From: Ideonella benzenivorans
Lineage (GTDB): Bacteria > Pseudomonadota > Gammaproteobacteria > Burkholderiales > Burkholderiaceae_C
NCBI RefSeq assembly: GCF_020387415.1
Contig: NZ_JAGWCB010000007.1
Location: 434,001-498,000 of the forward strand
Reading direction: 5' to 3'
Length of the DNA: 64,000 bases
This document shows, one piece after another, positions 11,401 to 32,895 of the stretch (the first letter of the stretch is position 1; each line of letters opens with the position of its first letter). The position numbers and the translations under genes were made by a program. The notes under the pieces were generated by a model. It had not been told where the DNA came from and did no database searches. It saw nothing but the letters and a program-made list of their open reading frames with translations.

Positions 11401-11824
11401 CAACGCCAGCACCTGGTGGCACGCTGCCCCGCAGGACGCCACGCTCACCGCTGTGCTGCAACGCGCGCAACCCTTTCGTCAGGAGCCATACCCGCCTGAC
11501 GTGACCTTGGCGCTGCTGCCGGACGAAGACGCAGACGATGTCTTGCTGCACCGGGTGATGGAGGGCGCCAAGCGCGGGCAGAGCCTCTATGTGCCCATCG
11601 ACCGCTCGCTGCACCATCGCGTGCCGAACGAAGCTGTGCGAGGCGACCGCATCGAGGCCTGGGGTACGACCGACTACCTCAGTGCACTGGCTGAGTTGGC
11701 CCGTGCGTTGGATCAGCCCCTCGATCGGTGCGCCAAACGGTTTGGCACGGTAGCCGTGCCTGACAGCACCGATGGGTGGCGCTACCACCCTGCACTTGGC
11801 TTTGCAAAGAAGCGCTCCGAGTGA
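8408..11824 (+). CDS. cas2-3: Cas2-Cas3 fusion nuclease-helicase, subtype I-F
   Basis: The protein has 1138 residues and is the fusion that defines subtype I-F. The first ~95 residues are a Cas2 domain (MNVLLISQCD, RNTAVACHWI). An HD nuclease follows, with HDLGKAIDAF at residues 123-132. The superfamily 2 helicase has Walker A TGCGKT at about 435-440, the motif II equivalent LDEPDDFD near 587, SSATLPP (motif III), and QLAGRVRRHR (motif VI) near 870. It is recruited to target-bound Csy complex to unwind and cut DNA, and with Cas1 it also performs adaptation. All main motifs are intact. It is translationally coupled to cas1 and followed by a GC-rich hairpin. Confidence 0.96.
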   Translation: MNVLLISQCDKRALTETRRILDQFAERRGDRTWQTPITQDGLDTLRRLLRKTARKNTAVACHWIRGIDHSELLWVVGDRRRFNEQGAVPTNSTRRNVLRSADEDQWHSGELIRLLTDMAGLLHDLGKAIDAFQARLKGQLEGTNLIRHEWVSLRLLEAFVGRDDDATWLARLATPGPEDDARWLRELRCDGLQGGFDSPFKTLQNAPLAMALGWLVVTHHRLPVLPQGKGQGDGFQMSRLRGLLTQVQPAWNEQAFDRAEPADFAPYWRFPHGLPVRSEAWRRRASRIARRLLEWRGRQPTGPTAEALLNNPFVMHLSRLSLMLADHHYSRLQGDSAERVSGDAHHPLWANTLAGGGPNQRLDEHLLGVAQHGAEVARFLPRLAQHLPRLGAHKTLRQRTRDERYRWQDKSAELAAGLRERAEQQGAFLVNMASTGCGKTLANARIMYALADPSQGLRCAFALGLRTLTLQTGQSFRALLGLGDDDLAIRVGGSASRALFEFHEAQAEALGSASGQALLEEDGHVLYEGATDQHPLLRRAVADPEVSKLLLAPLLVCTIDHLTPATESQRGGRQIAPMLRLMSGDLVLDEPDDFDLDDLPALTRLVHWAGLLGARVLLSSATLPPALIQGLFEAYRAGRHHFQRNCSARPGGADAPPVVCCAWVDEFDQQALDCPDPAQFAQAHAQFALRRQAALAKLAAQPRRRAALLPAPVPSPPGAKDLPALAAAWAPALLAAAVSLHQKHHSVDPVSGHRVSFGLIRMANIEPLFEVALALFRQPVPPGCRVHLCVYHSRHPLLVRSAIERQLDRTLARQDPSAVFSLPDIRQRLDAAPEPDQLFIVLGSPVTEVGRDHDYDWALVEPSSMRSLIQLAGRVRRHRPEPVDSANVLVFDHNLRHFREPGRAAFCKPGFETDEPAFHLTTHDLHTLLRPEELAAIDARPRIVPPAELQVQQRLVDLEHARLRQRMLPSTVPTSAPARGLMSRARSQAAATPPMPELNASTWWHAAPQDATLTAVLQRAQPFRQEPYPPDVTLALLPDEDADDVLLHRVMEGAKRGQSLYVPIDRSLHHRVPNEAVRGDRIEAWGTTDYLSALAELARALDQPLDRCAKRFGTVAVPDSTDGWRYHPALGFAKKRSE

Positions 11825-11827
11825 AGA

Positions 11828-11852
11828 GGGCCGACACCTAAGGTGCCGGCCC
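11828..11852. terminator. GC-rich hairpin after cas2-3
   Basis: GGGCCGACACC and GGTGCCGGCCC form an 11-bp stem with one mismatch around the loop TAA, starting 3 bp after the cas2-3 stop. No T-run follows on either strand, so termination would be weak or factor-dependent. It could end both the cas1-cas2-3 transcript and the minus-strand guide RNA that abuts it at 11853. Confidence 0.45.
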
Positions 11853-11927
11853 GCTGCCTGTACGGCAGTGAAGTGCGACTTCGGTAGACCAATGGTCGCT
11901 TTTCTGAGCTGCCTAGCGGCAGTGGGC
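11853..11927 (-). ncRNA. Degenerate CRISPR mini-array encoding a putative regulatory guide RNA (CreA/CreR-like)
   Basis: Read on the minus strand, 11927-11901 is a 27-nt degenerate copy of the array repeat: the hairpin arms CTGCC/GGCAG and the whole 5' handle CTCAGAAA are kept, the loop is shortened to GCTA and the first bases read GCCCA instead of GTTCA. A 27-nt spacer-like segment (11900-11874) follows. Then 11873-11853 is a second partial repeat, with intact CTGCC/GGCAG arms, loop GTACA, and the last seven bases lost. Cas6f could therefore process it and Csy proteins could load a guide shorter than the normal 32 nt. Spacer positions 2-13 match 12103-12092 (see that entry). Repeat-spacer-repeat remnants beside cas genes that regulate cas or toxin genes are known as CreA or CreR RNAs in several systems. 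Function here is inferred. Confidence 0.75.
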
Positions 11928-11939
11928 TGAGCTTACCGT

Positions 11940-11968
11940 ATGATCTGACGCAATGACTCCTGCTGCAA
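11940..11968 (-). promoter_or_regulatory. Candidate minus-strand promoter for the mini-array guide
   Basis: On the minus strand TTGCAG (11968-11963), a 17-bp spacer and GATCAT (11945-11940) form a weak sigma-70-like promoter (3/6 and 4/6 matches). Transcription would begin near 11933, six bases before the first degenerate repeat, giving a ~100-nt RNA that ends near the hairpin at 11828-11852. The spacing is suggestive; the hexamers alone are not decisive. Confidence 0.35.
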
Positions 11969-11994
11969 AACTTCTGAAGATCTATGTTCGCTGG

Positions 11995-12023
11995 TTGATA
12001 AATGAATCTATCGGCGATACATT
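11995..12023 (+). promoter_or_regulatory. Candidate plus-strand promoter upstream of the short ORF and csy1
   Basis: TTGATA at 11995-12000 (5/6 to TTGACA), a 17-bp spacer, and TACATT at 12018-12023 (4/6 to TATAAT) make the best sigma-70 match in the gap. The predicted start near 12030 coincides with the 5' edge of the 14-bp hairpin. The promoter would transcribe the 12-codon ORF and, if the terminator at 12192-12219 is passed, the csy operon. Confidence 0.5.
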
Positions 12024-12026
12024 GGT

Positions 12027-12060
12027 GAACGCGCAGGGTGTTCCACCACCCTGCGCGTTC
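12027..12060 (+). promoter_or_regulatory. Perfect 14-bp hairpin at the predicted 5' end of the leader RNA
   Basis: GAACGCGCAGGGTG (12027-12040) and its exact complement CACCCTGCGCGTTC (12047-12060) flank a 6-nt loop TTCCAC. No T-run follows, so this is not a standard terminator. At a predicted 5' end such a stem commonly protects RNA from decay, as in stable small RNAs. It could also be a protein-binding site. Confidence 0.55.
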
Positions 12061-12091
12061 GGAGCAACGCCATCGGTTTGAAGAGCCAGGC

Positions 12092-12103
12092 ACCAATGGT
12101 CGC
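12092..12103 (-). promoter_or_regulatory. Putative target site of the mini-array guide
   Basis: The minus strand here reads GCGACCATTGGT, identical to positions 2-13 of the spacer-like guide at 11900-11874, which is the seed side next to the CTCAGAAA handle. Guide position 1 mismatches. The minus-strand bases before the site are TCC then TT: the I-F PAM dinucleotide CC is present but shifted by one base from the ideal place, so binding strength is uncertain. A Csy complex here would sit between the 11995 promoter and the Shine-Dalgarno at 12117 and could act as a roadblock. Confidence 0.55.
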
Positions 12104-12125
12104 AAGGATGTCGACCAAGGAGGGT

Positions 12126-12164
12126 ATGAACGTGAGTAGCACTCACCAGACCATAAGAGTCTGA
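12126..12164 (+). CDS. 12-codon leader ORF or CreT-like toxin ORF
   Basis: ATG 12126 to TGA 12162-12164 encodes MNVSSTHQTIRV. A near-perfect Shine-Dalgarno AAGGAGG lies at 12117-12123. The in-frame GTG at 12132 has better (8-bp) spacing and would give ten residues. Codons 10-11 are ATA-AGA, two codons that are very rare in GC-rich genomes. An 8-bp hairpin (AGTGCAGC/GCTGCACT, 12164-12183) overlaps the stop and an intrinsic terminator follows at 12192. Strong initiation, tiny ORF and tandem rare codons match the tRNA-sequestering design of CreT toxins. The same anatomy also fits an attenuator leader peptide. It could be untranslated. Confidence 0.45.
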   Translation: MNVSSTHQTIRV

Positions 12165-12191
12165 GTGCAGCTTCCGCTGCACTTCCAAAGC

Positions 12192-12219
12192 ATCCCCGGG
12201 GCATTGCCCTGGGGATTTT
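12192..12219 (+). terminator. Intrinsic terminator between the short ORF and csy1
   Basis: ATCCCCGGGGC (12192-12202), loop ATT, and GCCCTGGGGAT (12206-12216) form an 11-bp stem with one G-U pair, followed by TTTT (12216-12219). This is a good rho-independent terminator 39 bp before csy1 ATG. The upstream hairpin 12164-12183 is close enough to form an alternating structure set, so read-through into csy1 could be controlled. Confidence 0.8.
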
Positions 12220-12258
12220 AGGCACGGTCTTGTGCCATCAATTAACTCAGGGAAATTC

Positions 12259-13539
12259 ATGTCTACGCACCTCAACGGGCGTCAGGCAGAGCTTCGTTCG
12301 CTGGTTCAGGGCTTCTTGTCCGAACGACTGAACTCCAAGCTGGAAAAGCTCGCTGAAGACGACCCCAAGCGCGCCGAGTTGCAGGCGCAGTACCAACCCG
12401 CCGTTTGGCTGGAAGACGCGGCCCGCCGCGTCGGGCAGATCCAGGCGGTCACCCACTCGCTCAAGCCCATCCACCCGGACGCCAAGGGCAGCAGCCTGTA
12501 CCGTGAGCCCAGCGCGCTGCCGCCGCTGGATGAAATGGGCAGTCACGCCTTGGGAGACGCGTTTGACGCTGACGTGGTGGGCAATGCCGCCGCGTTGGAT
12601 GTCTACAAGTTCCTGAAGCTGATGCACCAGGGCCAAAGCCTGTTGAGCCTGGCGACACAAGGCGACGCGGATCTGGGCGCGGCGCTCAGTGAGGACACCG
12701 CCCAAGCCGCGGGTTGGATGGCGGCGTTTGCAGGCCTGTCCGAAGCACGGGGCCGCCTCAGCTCGCACACGCTGGCCAAGCAGCTCTATTGGCCTGTGGG
12801 CGACGATCCGCATGACGATGCGGGCTACCACCTGCTGGCGCCGCTGTACCCCACCTCGCTGGTGCAACGGGTCTACCAGACGCTGCAAGACGACCGCTTC
12901 GGCGAGGAAGCCAAGGCCGCCCGCGAGGCCCGCAAAGCGGGGCATTGGCACGCGCGGCCTGTGCGCGAGTACCCCCACCTGGCCATTCAGAAGCTGGGCG
13001 GCACCAAACCCCAGAACATCAGCCAGCTCAACAGCGAGCGCCGAGGCGACAACCTGCTGCTGGCCTCGCTGCCGCCGGTGTGGCGTTCGGCAGAGGTCCG
13101 CCCCGTGTTGGGCACGGTCTCGCTGTTCAAGGTCTTTCGCCACCGGCCAGAAGCCCGCCGGCTGACCCAACTGCTGCGCCGCTTCCTGGAGGGCGATCCT
13201 GCGAGCAACCTGGCCACGCGCACCCAACGCGACGAGTGGGTGGAGGCGCTGCTGGAAGAGCTGATGCTGTTCACCGCCGAGCAGCAGACCTTGGAGCCTG
13301 GTTGGACGGCAGAGCCGCGGTGCGAGCTGCCCGCCTCTCACCGCGCCTGGTTGGACCCCGAGGGCGTGGCCACGGCCGATCCCGTGCCTGATCTGATGGA
13401 TGCCCTGGCACAGGACTTTGCCAACTGGCTCAACCACGAGCTGCGTGACCCGCTGCCCATGGGTGACCCCGAGTATCTGCATTGGCGCAAGCAGGCCCGC
13501 GAGCTGTTCACGGCCATGGAGCGGGAGGGCGTGCTGTGA
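12259..13539 (+). CDS. csy1: Csy1 (Cas8f), large subunit of the type I-F Csy complex
   Basis: The protein has 426 residues, close to the 434 of the Pseudomonas protein. With Csy2 it forms the crRNA 5'-handle-bound tail and recognises the CC PAM. Family features include an N-terminal helical segment with LSERLNSKLEKL, NLNSERRGDNLLLASLPPVW-like text (SQLNSERRGDNLLLASLPP) and a helical C-terminus. ATG 12259 follows AGGGAA at 12249; an upstream in-frame GTG at 12232 lacks such a site and lies by the terminator. Its stop overlaps the csy2 GTG start (GTGA). Transcription probably depends on a promoter or read-through in the unusual 434-bp leader region. Confidence 0.94.
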   Translation: MSTHLNGRQAELRSLVQGFLSERLNSKLEKLAEDDPKRAELQAQYQPAVWLEDAARRVGQIQAVTHSLKPIHPDAKGSSLYREPSALPPLDEMGSHALGDAFDADVVGNAAALDVYKFLKLMHQGQSLLSLATQGDADLGAALSEDTAQAAGWMAAFAGLSEARGRLSSHTLAKQLYWPVGDDPHDDAGYHLLAPLYPTSLVQRVYQTLQDDRFGEEAKAAREARKAGHWHARPVREYPHLAIQKLGGTKPQNISQLNSERRGDNLLLASLPPVWRSAEVRPVLGTVSLFKVFRHRPEARRLTQLLRRFLEGDPASNLATRTQRDEWVEALLEELMLFTAEQQTLEPGWTAEPRCELPASHRAWLDPEGVATADPVPDLMDALAQDFANWLNHELRDPLPMGDPEYLHWRKQARELFTAMEREGVL

Positions 13540-14561
13540 GCCAACCCCATCTGCCCCACCGCGGCATGCTGCTGCTGCCGCGCATCCGGGTGCAAAACGC
13601 CAATGCCATTTCCAGCCCGCTCACCTGGGGTTTCCCGGCCATCACCGCCTTCACCGGCCTGATGACCGCGCTGGAGCGCCGGCTGGGCCCGCAAGCGGGC
13701 ATCAACCTGCTGGGCGTCGGCGTGGTGTGCCATGGCTTCGAGGCCCAGGTGACGACGGACGGCTACACGCGGGCCTTCCGTCTCACCCGCAACCCCGTGC
13801 TTCAGGACGGCAGCACCGCGGCCATCGTGGAGGAAGGGCGCGTCCATCTGGACATCAGCCTCGTCTTCGAGGTGCGACTGGGGGATGCGCTGCTGGGCGA
13901 TGCCGAGCGCGAGGCCCTGGCCGGGCACATTGCGCAGACGTTGGGCAGCATGCGCCTGGCAGGTGGCAGCGTGATGCCGCCGCTGCCCTCCAGCCCGCGT
14001 CGCCCGCAGCGAGCCCTGCTGGCCCTGGTGCCCGACGACCCCCAGGAACAGCGCGAACAGTTCCGCCGCCTGGCACGGCGTCTGATGCCGGGCTTTGCAT
14101 TGATCTCGCGCGACGACCTGCTGCAGCAGAGGTTGGCCGAGCTGCGCACCCACGATGCCCGGGCCGGCACGCTGGACGCCTGGCTGGATCTGGCCCGCTG
14201 GACCAGCCGGGCCGTTGCGGCCCCCACCGCGGACGCCCAGGCAGGGGACACGCCGGACGACCACGCTGCCTGGGTGACCGACCCGCGCCCTGGTTGGATC
14301 GTGCCCATCCCCGTGGGCTTCACTGCGCTCTCGCCGCTGTTGCCGGCCGGCAGCGTGGCCAATGCGCGGGACATGGTCACGCCTTTTCGATTCGTCGAGA
14401 CCGTGTGGTCCATCGGCCAATGGATCAGCCCGCACAGGCTGCAGCGCCTCAGCGAACTGATCTGGCAAAGCGGACACGACCACGACCCGGCGCAGCCTAG
14501 TGACCAGGGCTTGTACCGCTGCTTTATTGACCCCCAGGCCACCGCGGCCACCCCCTACTGA
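13536..14561 (+). CDS. csy2: Csy2 (Cas5f), type I-F Csy complex subunit
   Basis: GTG 13536 gives 341 residues, similar to the usual ~330. The start overlaps the csy1 stop by GTGA, and the N-terminus ([20 protein letters not shown] then [16 protein letters not shown]) is characteristic of Csy2. It caps the 5' handle of the crRNA together with Csy1 and helps read the PAM. The C-terminal half keeps [19 protein letters not shown], another family block. It is followed by a 17-bp gap to csy3. Confidence 0.94.
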
Positions 14562-14578
14562 CTTTCAGGGAGAACACC

Positions 14579-15619
14579 ATGGCAACCAAGGAAACCACCC
14601 TCAAGACCGCTTCCGTGCTCGCCTTCGAGCGCAAGCTGGACCCCTCTGACGCACAGTTCTTCGCGGGCCCCTGGGACACCCGCCAGACCAGCGCGGACTG
14701 GGGCCCCGTCACGATCAACGAGAAGTCCGTGCGCGGCACCATCTCCAACCGGCTCAAGACCAAGGACCAGGACCCGGCCAAGCTGGATGCCGCCATCGAG
14801 AACCCCAACCTGCAAACGGTGGATGTGGCGGCTCTGCCCGCCAATGCCGACACGCTGAAGGTCAGCTTCACCTTGCGTGTGCTGGGCGGCACGGGCACAC
14901 CGTCTGCCTGCAACAACGCCGATTACCAGGCCAAGCTATTGAGCACGGTGAAGGGCTATGTCGATGCACAGGGTTTCACCGAGCTGGCCCGTCGCTACGC
15001 CTGCAACCTGGCCAACGCGCGCTTCCTGTGGCGCAACCGTGTGGGGGCGGAGCAGGTGGAGGTCCACATCGCCCATCTGGTGCAAGGCCAGGCGGCCCGC
15101 ACCTGGGTGTTCGATGCCCTGAGCCTGCCGCTGCGCGACTTCACGGCACCGGCAACAGCTGAATCGGAGCTGGGCGCCTTGGCCGCGCTGATCGCCCAGG
15201 GGCTGGCTGGCAGCAGCCATGTGCTGCTGCAGGTCACTGCCTTTGCCCGCCTGGGGGCCGCGCAGGAGGTCTACCCCTCGCAGGAACTCATTCTGGACAA
15301 GGGCAACAGCAAGAAGAGCAAGACGCTGTACCACGTGCTGGGCGTGGCCGGCATCCACTCCCAGAAGCTGGGCAATGCGCTGCGCACCATCGACACCTGG
15401 CACCCCGACGTGGCCGAACTGGGGCCGATTGCCGTCGAACCCTATGGTTCGGTGACCACGTTGGGCAAGGCCTGCCGCAAGCCGACCGACAAGCTGGACT
15501 TCTACAACCTGCTGGACGGCTGGCTGCTCAAGGACAAGGTGCCGCCAATGGAACAGCAGCACTTCGTGATGGCCACGCTGATCCGCGGCGGTGTGTTCGG
15601 CGACGCGGGCAAGGAGTGA
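14579..15619 (+). CDS. csy3: Csy3 (Cas7f), backbone subunit of the type I-F Csy complex
   Basis: The protein has 346 residues (Pseudomonas Csy3 has 342). Six copies normally coat the 32-nt spacer part of the crRNA. Family blocks include [16 protein letters not shown] near the N-terminus, [43 protein letters not shown], and the C-terminal [24 protein letters not shown] 14579 has AGGGAG nearby upstream. The gene sits in the fixed order csy1-2-3-cas6f. Confidence 0.96.
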
Positions 15620-15626
15620 GCCGGCC

Positions 15627-16190
15627 ATGCACCACTACATCGACATCCATCTGCGGCCAGACCCGGAGTTTGCGCCGCACCAGTTGATGGCCGCGCTCTT
15701 TGCCAAGCTGCACCGTTGGCTGGCGCTGACGCAGAGCCAACACATCGCGGTGAGCTTTCCCGGCTATGGGGAGTCGCCCGCCACCCTGGGCTCCACCCTG
15801 CGGATGATGGGCCCGACGACTGAGCTGACGCGGCTGATGGAACACGACTGGCTTCAAGGCATGCACGACCACGTGGATGTGCGGCCCCTGGCCCCCGTGC
15901 CTGCGCAAGCCCTCCAACGCACCCTGCGCCGTGTGCAGGCCAAGAGCAGCCCTGAGCGCCTGCGGCGGCGCCAGATGCGCCGACACCACCTGACGCCGGA
16001 ACAGGCCCAGGAACGGGTGCCTGACAGCTGCGCAGAGACCTTGAGGTTGCCCTTCCTGACCTTGGCCAGCGCCAGCACCGGCCAGCGCTTCAAGCTCTTC
16101 CTGCGGCTGGGGCCACCCTGCGACGCCACACAGGCCGGCAACTTCAACAGCTACGGCCTGAGCAGCACCGCAACCATTCCGTGGTTCTGA
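15627..16190 (+). CDS. cas6f: Cas6f (Csy4) crRNA-processing endoribonuclease
   Basis: The protein has 187 residues, exactly the length of the Pseudomonas enzyme. Key residues line up by number: catalytic His29, Arg102 and Gln104 (RRVQ) for recognition of the stem base, Ser148 and Tyr176 in the active site, and Phe155 stacking on the RNA. The arginine-rich helix spans about 101-122 (RRVQAKSSPERLRRRQMRRH). It cuts each repeat at the 3' base of the CTGCC/GGCAG hairpin to leave the CTCAGAAA handle. All parts are intact, so array and mini-array transcripts should both be processable. ATG 15627 begins 7 bp after the csy3 stop. Confidence 0.97.
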   Translation: MHHYIDIHLRPDPEFAPHQLMAALFAKLHRWLALTQSQHIAVSFPGYGESPATLGSTLRMMGPTTELTRLMEHDWLQGMHDHVDVRPLAPVPAQALQRTLRRVQAKSSPERLRRRQMRRHHLTPEQAQERVPDSCAETLRLPFLTLASASTGQRFKLFLRLGPPCDATQAGNFNSYGLSSTATIPWF

Positions 16191-16321
16191 CCCTTTTTTC
16201 TGAAGAGGAGTGCAAGTCATTGGAAATCAGTCACTTGCACGACGATCCACCACAAGGGTCAGGGAGCCTCTTGGGGTAGAAAGGCTTTGCACGATAGTCA
16301 CTTAGGCCCAGGGGCGGCCTA
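16191..16321 (+). promoter_or_regulatory. CRISPR leader with IHF consensus site
   Basis: This 131-bp region lies between cas6f and the first repeat, where I-F leaders lie. AATCAGTCACTTG at 16225-16237 fits the IHF consensus WATCARNNNNTTR; IHF bending of the leader is required for I-F spacer integration. An 8-bp inverted repeat GTGCAAGT/ACTTGCAC (16210-16240) surrounds it, and the motif AGTCACTT recurs at 16297-16304, 18 bp before repeat 1. The pre-crRNA promoter should also be here but no clear hexamers stand out. Confidence 0.7.
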
Positions 16322-19300
16322 GTTCACTGCCGCACAGGCAGCTCAGAAATAAAGATCAACCGGACTACCCTGCAATGGCCTGTTCACTGCCGCACAGGCA
16401 GCTCAGAAAGTGAGGCCGTGGTGGTGCAGGCTGTCGGCTGGGTTCACTGCCGCACAGGCAGCTCAGAAAGCCCAAGGTCCGGTGTTCCAAGGTCAGCTCA
16501 CGTTCACTGCCGCACAGGCAGCTCAGAAATGGTTGTTTGGCGCCGCAGGCAGGGAGACGTGGTTCACTGCCGCACAGGCAGCTCAGAAATCAGTGCTGAG
16601 CACGTAGACGGTGACGTAGCCGTTCACTGCCGCACAGGCAGCTCAGAAAAAATTCTCCATCTATGCCGGTGCCCCCATGGCGTTCACTGCCGCACAGGCA
16701 GCTCAGAAATGATTGATACGCCCCGACGGGGACATGCTGTCGTTCACTGCCGCACAGGCAGCTCAGAAACGAGACGCAGCGCACCAGGGGCCGGGCATGG
16801 AGTTCACTGCCGCACAGGCAGCTCAGAAATGTTGATTGAGGTTTGCCCTACATCGCAAACCGTTCACTGCCGCACAGGCAGCTCAGAAAACTGTGGGAAG
16901 GCGGTACGGACGACGATGACAGTTCACTGCCGCACAGGCAGCTCAGAAATCATTAGGACCTTGATCGGAATGGGACTCTCTGTTCACTGCCGCACAGGCA
17001 GCTCAGAAAAGCCCCCAGTGTGGCCGTCCAGGTGCTGCCGCGTTCACTGCCGCACAGGCAGCTCAGAAAGTGTTGAACCGGAGCACATTGCCCACCGACC
17101 AGTTCACTGCCGCACAGGCAGCTCAGAAATCAAGAGCGTCGACTCGCTGGTCATCTCTGGCGTTCACTGCCGCACAGGCAGCTCAGAAATGGACGGCAAG
17201 GCCTGGCTGGACGAAACGGTCGTTCACTGCCGCACAGGCAGCTCAGAAACGAGGCCCTCGTAGTTGGCCGTCTTCTCCGGCGTTCACTGCCGCACAGGCA
17301 GCTCAGAAATTCCAGAACTACTGGGACGGCCTGCTGGCCAGGTTCACTGCCGCACAGGCAGCTCAGAAATTCGCGGCATCCAGGCGCGGCCAGTCCGTGG
17401 CGTTCACTGCCGCACAGGCAGCTCAGAAATCCAGGGTCTGCGCAGCATGATCACGCCGGTCGGTTCACTGCCGCACAGGCAGCTCAGAAAAAGGTGCTCG
17501 CCCAGCAACTTCAGCGCGCCGAGTTCACTGCCGCACAGGCAGCTCAGAAACCTGGGTCCAAGCGCTGCGCAGCTCGTAGAGGGGTTCACTGCCGCACAGG
17601 CAGCTCAGAAAATGTCGAACCGCACGGGCACATGGAACTCGCCGTTCACTGCCGCACAGGCAGCTCAGAAATGCACGACCTGGCCGGCGAAAACCAGCTG
17701 GTGGTTCACTGCCGCACAGGCAGCTCAGAAATTCAGGTCGCTCAGGCGCTGGCCGTCCACCCGGTTCACTGCCGCACAGGCAGCTCAGAAATGTGGCGTC
17801 CGACACGTCGTTGAGCGCGTCGAGTTCACTGCCGCACAGGCAGCTCAGAAAAGGCCCTGGAGGCCATCGGCCTCAGTGCCAAAGTTCACTGCCGCACAGG
17901 CAGCTCAGAAAATCTCCAGCGCGCTGATGTTTTCGATGGTGCTGTTCACTGCCGCACAGGCAGCTCAGAAATACGTCATCGGCCACCCGCGCGTGGCGGG
18001 GGATGTTCACTGCCGCACAGGCAGCTCAGAAATGCTCACCGGCTGCGTGGCCGCCATCGCTGTGGTTCACTGCCGCACAGGCAGCTCAGAAACTGGTAGG
18101 CGGGATTCAGCGCCGCGACCACATCGTTCACTGCCGCACAGGCAGCTCAGAAAGCTGGATGTTCCTCCAGCGCAAGGGCTACACCGTTCACTGCCGCACA
18201 GGCAGCTCAGAAAACCAGCCAGTGGCTCAACACCGTGTTTCTGTTGTTCACTGCCGCACAGGCAGCTCAGAAATGCAGGCGCTCCTGCCCCCTCTTCTCC
18301 AGAGCGTTCACTGCCGCACAGGCAGCTCAGAAAGGCCGGGCCGCCGCAGGACGGCGATGCAGGGCAGTTCACTGCCGCACAGGCAGCTCAGAAAGGCGGG
18401 TACAACAAGTGGGATGGATGGTTGATGTTCACTGCCGCACAGGCAGCTCAGAAAAGGCGCGGGAGAAGTTGCCCCGATCGTCGGGCGTTCACTGCCGCAC
18501 AGGCAGCTCAGAAATTCCCCCCCAACAGATCAATCCCGAATGGATCGTTCACTGCCGCACAGGCAGCTCAGAAATTGAGGCCCAGGTGACCGCCCTTGAG
18601 GCCCAGGTTCACTGCCGCACAGGCAGCTCAGAAAGTACCGCAGCAGCGTTTTGCACATCAAGCAAAGTTCACTGCCGCACAGGCAGCTCAGAAAAGCGAC
18701 CACCGCGGCGCACATGGCCGGCCGGTGTTCACTGCCGCACAGGCAGCTCAGAAATTGTCCACGCTGAGATCGGAGGCCAGCTGCTTGTTCACTGCCGCAC
18801 AGGCAGCTCAGAAAAGCCCGTGAACGACCGCGGGGAAACGTGGGACGTTCACTGCCGCACAGGCAGCTCAGAAACAGGGCGAGCTGCTGGCCCTGGAACA
18901 GCAGTTGTTCACTGCCGCACAGGCAGCTCAGAAATCGTCGTAGCCGGTCCAGTAGTCGGTGGCGAAGTTCACTGCCGCACAGGCAGCTCAGAAACGCTGG
19001 AATACAACCAGTTCATGCCGGCCCTGGTTCACTGCCGCACAGGCAGCTCAGAAATCGGCCAGTGCGGGCGGCGTGGAATCGTCGTCGTTCACTGCCGCAC
19101 AGGCAGCTCAGAAATTCCACGCGGGTGAACTTGTCGGCCACCTTGTGTTCACTGCCGCACAGGCAGCTCAGAAAGCGTCGGCGGCGGCGTTCTGAACTTC
19201 GAAGCCGTTCACTGCCGCACAGGCAGCTCAGAAAAGCACGCTGTGGTTCGCCGCCCAACAGGAACAGGTTCACTGCCGCACAGGCAGCTCAGAAAAGAGC

Positions 19301-32410: not shown

Positions 32411-32895
32411 GACTGGGCGGGGCGGCGCTGGCGGGCGGCCAGGCGCTGCGGCAACACGGTGTCGACGGTTTCGCCGGCGATGCGGCGCTGCAGGTAGGCC
32501 AGGTCATCGCCCAGCTCGGCGCGCAGCCGGCGGGCTTCGCGCAGCTCGCGGCTGACGGCGTCGATGCGGGCGTCCAGTGTCTCGACCTGGCGGGTCAGGG
32601 CATCGTGGATCTCCACCAGCGCGGTCTGCGAATGCACTTTGCGGCCATCGGCCAGGGCCTCCACCGGCCGCTTGAGCATCTCGGCGATCGCTTGCAGCGA
32701 GAAACCCAGCGAGCGCAAGCGCAGCACCCGTGCGAAGCGCTCCAGGTCCTGCGGGCTGTAGAGCCGGTAGCGGCCCTCGCTGCGGCTGGGGGAGACCAGC
32801 CCGCGCTCCTCGTAGTACTTGAGGGTGCGGGGCGTGACCGCGAGCCGTTCGGCGGCCTGCCGGATGGTCAGCAAATCGGTGGCAGGGGTGGACAT
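32407..32895 (-). CDS. MerR-family transcriptional regulator
   Basis: The protein has 162 residues. Its N-terminal winged helix is typical (LTIRQAAERLAVTPRTLKYYEERGL then GRYRLYSPQDLERFARVLRLRSLGFSL), followed by a coiled-coil dimerisation helix (residues ~95-140). The C-terminus lacks conserved cysteines, so it probably senses a drug or other organic ligand rather than a metal. It overlaps the downstream MFS gene by 4 bp and has a perfect palindrome just upstream (32927-32950), consistent with autoregulated control of the exporter. Confidence 0.9.
   Translation of the reverse strand: MSTPATDLLTIRQAAERLAVTPRTLKYYEERGLVSPSRSEGRYRLYSPQDLERFARVLRLRSLGFSLQAIAEMLKRPVEALADGRKVHSQTALVEIHDALTRQVETLDARIDAVSRELREARRLRAELGDDLAYLQRRIAGETVDTVLPQRLAARQRRPAQS

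Follow-up and report, generated by a model that had tools for sequence, protein, structure and literature searches.

The 434-bp gap between cas3 (stop codon at 11824) and csy1 (start at 12259) in a type I-F CRISPR-Cas locus of Ideonella benzenivorans contains two degenerate minus-strand CRISPR repeats, which run against the direction of the plus-strand main array, and raises the question of whether these are the remains of a decaying array or frame a working guide RNA and, if the latter, what that guide would regulate. The window, by which is meant the whole 64-kb stretch of DNA analysed, encodes cas1f, cas3f, csy1, csy2, csy3, and csy4, all of which score above the NCBIfam cut-offs in a profile search, and its type I-F locus looks intact. 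The csy1 gene (cas8f; 12259–13539, plus strand; TIGR02564, E = 3e-104) is the first of csy1–4, whose products form the complex that the CreA proposed below would require. The main I-F array begins at 16322 and is very long, extending to about 25420 with 152 exact matches to the repeat stem.

Degenerate repeats, guide and target

The first repeat, psiR1 (11927–11901, minus strand), is made up of CTGCC (11922–11918), the loop GCTA, GGCAG (11913–11909) and an 8-nt 5′ handle, CTCAGAAA (11908–11901), identical to the handle of the main array; across relatives the changes in its stem are compensatory (see below). The second, psiR2 (11873–11854, minus strand), retains the stem CTGCC-GTACA-GGCAG, the expected Csy4/Cas6f site and 3′ handle of CreA, and has no 5′ handle after the stem. 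Between them lies psiS (11900–11874, minus strand), the putative guide of CreA, which is 27 nt long against about 32 nt for the spacers of the main array. A first-pass annotation of this DNA had described two inverted degenerate repeats flanking 27 nt, with the stem in both copies and the full handle in the upstream one, and direct reading bears out both descriptions. The degenerate repeats, the 27-nt guide and the minus-strand position set the element apart from a canonical I-F array, in which repeats are identical and spacers measure ∼32 nt, whereas degenerate copies of the cognate repeat flanking a spacer-like guide beside cas genes are the arrangement expected of creA in a CreTA module.

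The pattern CTGCCN5GGCAG, for which 0.67 chance occurrences are expected in 64 kb, has 153 matches in the window, 152 in the main array and one in the gap; it recognizes psiR2 and the main-array repeats and misses psiR1 because the psiR1 loop is 4 nt rather than 5. In an Rfam scan the element gave no match above the gathering threshold, CRISPR-DR4 reaching 20.6 bits (E = 0.93) on psiR1 against a gathering score of 35. Taken alone, the two repeat copies are weak evidence for a real element, and it is judged real because of the comparison across relatives, in which 37 of the 94 regions lying upstream of csy1 have a minus-strand stem and handle and every guide matches its own gap.

Directly past the cas3 stop codon is an inverted repeat (11828–11852, minus strand) with 11-bp arms around TAA, whose sole non-Watson–Crick position is G-U on the minus strand and A-C on the plus strand. 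Similar hairpins can be seen by eye past cas3 in L004, L011, L017, L018, L019, and L023, and that of the window may be the terminator of a creA transcript. A promoter scan of 11500–17500 found no creA promoter on the minus strand, and in the predicted free fold of creA psiR1 pairs with psiR2, hiding both Csy4 stems.

A scan of the 64-kb window with the guide yielded a single outstanding PAM-flanked site, at 11992–11966 on the minus strand, with a CC PAM at 11994–11993. This candidate CreA target, also the best CC-PAM match in the gap, is identical to the guide at 18 of 27 positions, the mismatches falling only at positions 6, 10, 12, 16, 18, and 24–27, and it scores 13/15 when guide nt 1–17 without 6 and 12 are counted. 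One other place in the window, a minus-strand site at 32807, also matches 18 of 27 positions; it has no CC PAM and 8/13 matches in the first 13 nt. Adjoining the PAM is the putative creT promoter (11995–12023, plus strand; −35 TTGATA, −10 TACATT, 17-nt spacer), which has 9 of 12 consensus bases and is the only promoter-like site on either strand of 11500–17500, where shuffled sequences average 0.5. As in CreTA, the guide has partial complementarity with a PAM-bearing site beside the promoter of creT, which it would very probably repress. CreR, by comparison, targets a cas promoter; here the target does adjoin a promoter-like site, but a creT RNA and its terminator precede csy1.

Guide–target agreement among relatives

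Relatives of csy1 were gathered from four loci of a named-genome scan and from overlapping searches at the level of genus (7/16 genomes), family (42/399), order (20/399), and class (32/369), with further stretches added; duplicate removal gave the 94 upstream regions. Left out were L001 and L002 (not csy1 hits), L008–L010, L052, and L053 (duplicates) and L073 and L074 (second pieces), and the class-search hit G1122 has no locus. Sampled evenly from larger groups, the 94 regions are not independent of one another (e.g., L027/L031, L028/L029, and L023/L024); some csy1 matches are distant or partial, and distances run to the start of the csy1 match rather than to a verified start codon. The 37 loci were picked by their minus-strand stem and handle, guide–target matching having played no part in the choice.

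Within its own gap every one of the 37 guides has a CC-PAM site that it matches at 11/15 or better, and for 35 the match is 12/15 or better; the scores are 11 in two loci, 12 in two, 13 in two (one being the window), 14 in 22, and 15 in nine. When guides are swapped between loci, 1,216 of the 1,332 pairs score 7–9 and only 10 reach 12/15 or more, six of which belong to three close pairs. When CC is exchanged for each of the other 15 dinucleotides, only AA (three loci) and TG (one locus) give 12/15. The targets lie on the creA strand in 37/37 loci. Matching over the 37 loci is 100% at positions 1–5, 22% at position 6, 92–95% at 7–11, 24% at 12, 73–92% at 13–17, and 22% at 18, falling to about half at 19–21 and to chance by 24, so that positions 6, 12, and 18 match at chance. 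A guide held in the Csy complex is expected to leave every sixth base free, and the freedom of these three positions therefore agrees with a Csy-held guide; it agrees as well with the mutation test of an Acinetobacter CreA. In that CreA positions 6, 11, and 18 are unpaired, nt 2–5, 7–9, and 13–17 are required, and 10, 12, 19, and 20 are not (PMC10097628).

The nearest relative with the element is L004 (Ideonella azotifigens, csy1 87% identical), in which the guide differs and the target has changed correspondingly, giving 14/15. Its target adjoins TTGACA/TACATT in the same place as the promoter of the window, and it has the same mini-ORF frame and hairpins, with the codons ATA-AGC. Across the 37 loci a promoter with at least 8/12 consensus bases starts no more than 9 nt from the PAM in 17 and not in the other 20, and the mean promoter score beside the PAM is 7.5, against 6.1 in shuffled sequence. 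Two array spacers of L005 that had been flagged were rejected, their matches being overlapping or repeated sequence within the array.

The repeat stem was assessed in a set of 35 loci chosen blind to it, the requirements being AGA as the core of the handle, a CC PAM, a match at each of nt 1–5 and a score of at least 13/15. The psiR1 stem is fully paired in 34 of them, 27 with five Watson–Crick pairs and seven with four and a G-U; the sole exception, L051, has four of five pairs, and at random positions five pairs with at least four Watson–Crick occur in 2.9%. Seven Watson–Crick stems are represented (CTGCC/GGCAG, CTGCT/AGCAG, CTGTC/GACAG, CTGTT/AACAG, CTACC/GGTAG, CTACT/AGTAG, and CTGTG/CACAG), as are three versions with one G-U pair, a pattern which indicates that the stem is maintained via compensatory changes. 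The handle is CTNAGAAA in 32 of the 35, the loop and the guide being variable, and a CTGCC-type second repeat is found in 35 of the 37 psiR1 loci, L015 and L032 lacking it. The expectation that stem and handle would be conserved across relatives and loop and spacer free is borne out by these counts, and the suggestion of a working guide RNA rather than a dying array gains support from the paired stems and from the CC-PAM match of every guide in its own gap.

The first-pass annotation had also named loss of the element from close relatives with an intact I-F system as an argument against function, and such loss is seen in part: in I. oryzae (csy1 87–88% identical) and I. aquatica (68–70%) the element is absent from the gap although csy1 and an I-F array are kept. 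In I. oryzae, which has no element, the start of csy1 is 53 nt past cas3. Since guides agree with their targets at every locus that has the element, its absence here is taken for the patchy distribution that accessory modules usually show.

The putative creT RNA and its possible roles

The predicted RNA downstream of the promoter (12026–12222) folds at −98.5 kcal/mol against −64.2 for shuffled sequence (z = −8.38). It opens with a 5′ hairpin of 14 perfect pairs (12027–12060, plus strand), equalled in 0 of 60 shuffles, followed by a strong Shine–Dalgarno sequence, AAGGAGG (12117–12123), conserved in L004, and by a mini-ORF of 12 codons (12126–12164; MNVSSTHQTIRV, then a stop) that contains a 6-bp hairpin (12132–12146) and the adjacent rare codons ATA (12153–12155) and AGA (12156–12158). 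Right behind the mini-ORF is a 3′ hairpin (12164–12183), whose L004 counterpart has changed arms, and then an intrinsic-terminator-like hairpin with a T run (12192–12219) that ends 39 nt before csy1. By its sequence and predicted fold this is a small RNA of the kind expected of creT, with a Shine–Dalgarno-led mini-ORF and a stable stem-loop. Between the terminator and csy1 there is a further small hairpin (12221–12258), counterparts of which can be seen by eye in several relatives.

Among the genes of the window (15,706 codons in all, taken from 6 cas genes and from 28 ORFs that were chosen automatically), ATA and AGA are two of the three rarest sense codons, at 0.51 and 0.38 per thousand, with TTA at 0.06. 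Of the 57 tRNA places in the draft genome, 56 were examined and contained one gene for tRNA-Arg(UCU) and three of the Met(CAT) type, among which an AUA-reading tRNA-Ile may be hidden.

In 23 of the 37 loci the target lies at least 230 nt from the csy1 match (long-gap loci), and 19 of these 23 have a mini-ORF by a codon-blind rule (strong Shine–Dalgarno sequence, 4–20 codons, longest candidate). Tandem rare codons are found in 15 of the 19, compared with a mean of 1.66 and a maximum of 6 in 200 base shuffles, for a codon set (AGA, AGG, ATA, TTA, and CTA) that was fixed after the sequences had been inspected. The pairs are AGA-AGA in seven, TTA-TTA in four, and mixed in four others, including the ATA-AGA of the window. 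In L079 the rule settles on a different ORF, and in L036 and L080 it selects nothing; by eye, these three loci have AGA-AGA, AGA-AGA, and TTA-TTA, respectively. The TTA-TTA mini-ORFs, in L027, L031, L055, and L056, would point to tRNA-Leu(UAA), which does not figure among the CreT targets in the portion of the CreTA literature covered. In 11 long-gap loci none of the 60 shuffles equals the longest perfect 5′ hairpin, whereas in 12 at least one does, and a terminator is identified by rule in 16 (that of L079 perhaps belonging to another gene) and in none of the other seven. One further candidate was considered within the creT leader, at 12103–12092, where 12 nt match guide nt 2–13 exactly. The word has two occurrences in the genome, at these two sites, and its length exceeds that of all 506 swapped pairs (maximum 10); it was rejected as a second target, there being no CC PAM, no such match in L004 and exact matches longer than 10 in only two of the 23 long-gap loci.

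Judged on sequence, the element is a real I-F CreTA-like module. We consider it probable that the whole constitutes a CreTA (type VIII toxin–antitoxin) module inside an intact I-F locus, with creT as a tRNA-trapping toxin; the bases for this are the anatomy, the PAM-flanked target, the agreement of guide and target across species, the covariation of the stem and the RNA structure. From these we infer the transcription, processing, repression, toxicity, and tRNA trapping that follow. creA would be transcribed leftwards from the cas3–csy1 gap, and Csy4 would cleave at each degenerate repeat and so release a crRNA-like RNA of 55 nt, made up of an 8-nt handle, the 27-nt guide and a 20-nt 3′ handle. 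The Csy complex carrying CreA would bind the CC-PAM site and cover the −35 region of the divergent promoter, and it is proposed that the DNA is held and not destroyed because the pairing is only partial. The product of that promoter would be creT, a structured RNA in which a strong ribosome-binding site precedes an ORF of 12 codons; it is likely to act as a tRNA-trapping toxin, the adjacent ATA and AGA codons trapping scarce tRNAs for AUA and AGA. Were the Csy complex lost, or blocked by an anti-CRISPR, creT would be freed and growth would stop; most likely, then, the guide keeps the toxic RNA off, with the effect that cells which lose CRISPR would be punished.

Several observations count against the CreTA reading. 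Position 16, needed in the Acinetobacter test, is unpaired in the window, whose score also lies below the 14–15 usual among the loci (31/37); no minus-strand promoter was found in the scan, and the creA fold hides the Csy4 stems. The 12 undistinguished 5′ hairpins, the seven long-gap loci without a terminator and the 20 loci without a promoter beside the PAM weigh in the same direction, as do the start-codon hairpin of the WCHA45 toxin (see below) and the two congeners without the element. The mixed ATA-AGA pair, the ATA-AGC of L004 and the choice of the codon set after inspection count against the rare-codon toxin in particular.

CreA may act on the csy genes as well. Transcription that reaches csy1–4 out of cas3 or off the 11995 promoter has to cross the creT terminator, and the promoter scan found no promoter between that terminator and csy1; CreA may therefore also tune csy expression. 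It is conceivable, if short of probable, that a single promoter, repressed by CreA–Csy, drives the toxin RNA and also, by way of a leaky terminator, csy1–4; just as tentatively, the module would be antitoxin and autorepressor at once, and CreTA and CreR forms would turn into one another as the creT leader is gained or lost. This reading is supported by the sole promoter-like site in the scanned region, the short distance from terminator to csy1, the 53-nt gap of I. oryzae, and the mixed csy1 tree. In this quick tree, with support below 80 on 20 of 75 inner branches, loci with creT, with a guide only, and with neither are mixed, requiring 24 changes where the least possible is 2; label shuffles require 30.9 on average and as few as 24 in 1 of 200, and since so low a number is rare the labels are partly clustered as well. 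The 78 rows exclude 12 regions (L040–L051) that have the csy1 start only and 4 of the other 82 that are shorter than 300 residues (including L095), and the labels were assigned partly by eye (L036, L079, and L080 as with creT), the guide-only class including long-gap and intermediate loci. The existence of guide-only relatives points to an interchange between CreTA and CreR forms at the csy1 gap.

Ten of the 37 loci (L023, L024, L025, L026, L028, L029, L039, L041, L057, and L095) have the target 32–104 nt before the csy1 match, a gap so short that creT cannot fit, and four are intermediate (122–197 nt). The ten are candidate I-F CreR autorepressors, and they give some weight to a reading of the window as an autorepressor only, in which the guide would turn down the csy operon and the RNA ahead of csy1 would be a leader without toxicity, in keeping with reviews that present CreR as a repressor of cas promoters (PMC12737573; PMC13131331). 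We think this unlikely: it leaves over the Shine–Dalgarno mini-ORFs and tandem rare codons of the long-gap loci and the hairpins and terminator of the window, and even among the ten a good promoter adjoins the PAM by rule in only two, L023 and L024.

Slightly less likely again is a CreTA module whose toxin does not use rare codons and acts, for example, through a hairpin at the mini-ORF start, as in the Acinetobacter WCHA45 I-F toxin (PMC10097628). In L004 the AGA codon is not conserved and the 6-bp hairpin of the mini-ORF is, with G-U pairs in it, but the tandem rare codons, which 15 of 19 loci have and which shuffles give in 6 at most, speak for the rare-codon toxin. The order of mini-ORF, hairpin, and terminator, with csy1 39 nt beyond, is also that of a leader-peptide attenuator, in which stalling at the rare codons would set read-through of the 12192–12219 terminator into csy1–4; we regard this as improbable, as no antiterminator pairing of the 3′ hairpin with the terminator stem could be seen by eye, and the guide and 5′ hairpin would be superfluous. 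That the element is a functionless relic of two decaying repeats, as its degenerate repeats and its absence from two congeners might suggest, is very hard to credit, being contradicted by stems that stay paired while their sequence changes and by guides that all agree with their targets.

Comparison with known CreTA and CreR systems

The first-pass annotation had likened the element to CreA and CreR, a likeness that is supported here; it did not choose between the two and did not contain the target, the promoter, or the toxin-like RNA. If the CreTA reading holds, RNA alone may be enough for a type I-F system outside Acinetobacter to render its host dependent on the system. The 37 guide–target pairs form a natural record of which guide positions matter for repression by Csy as opposed to destruction, the pattern being five fixed bases beside the PAM and two blocks of five, with 6, 12, and 18 free. 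Such pairs also offer a sequence-only route to CreTA-like modules, whose poorly conserved RNAs have been called hard to find from sequence (PMC8501985). If the dual role is true, a switch between addiction and autoregulation could be tested by comparing close species.

Type I-F CreTA has been tested in Acinetobacter sp. WCHA45 and two relatives, where it occupies the cas3–csy1 gap (PMC10097628). No I-F CreTA outside Acinetobacter was found among the matches listed, as judged by titles and the openings of abstracts, most subscription journals lying outside the coverage, and the module of the window is a CreTA-like variant absent from the literature searched. It resembles the Acinetobacter modules in its position, in the two degenerate repeats divergent from a Shine–Dalgarno mini-ORF, in the CC-PAM target and in partial pairing with position 6 free, and an 8-nt handle and a 20-nt 3′ handle are expected of both. 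It differs in that the Acinetobacter target lies downstream of the mapped start site while that of the window adjoins the −35 box, and in the guide, which is 20 nt there and 27 nt here. The WCHA45 toxin depends on a start-codon hairpin, likely acts on rRNA, and does not use rare codons (PMC10097628), in contrast to the adjacent rare codons of window-type mini-ORFs.

With the haloarchaeal I-B CreTA the module shares a two-repeat creA, repression by partial pairing (proposed for the window), and a stem-loop with a mini-ORF, which in the haloarchaeal toxins contains two consecutive rare AGA or AUA codons (PMC8501985; PMC9458426). Those systems are archaeal, of type I-B and with a TTC PAM, whereas that of the window is bacterial, of type I-F and with a CC PAM, and mixes ATA with AGA. 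CreR is listed for types I-B, I-E, and V-A in one review and for type I and V-A generally in another (PMC12737573; PMC13131331). The module is like CreR in aiming a crRNA-like guide at a cas-side promoter, and its short-gap relatives resemble CreR; it is unlike CreR in belonging to type I-F and in the toxin-like RNA placed between the promoter and csy1.
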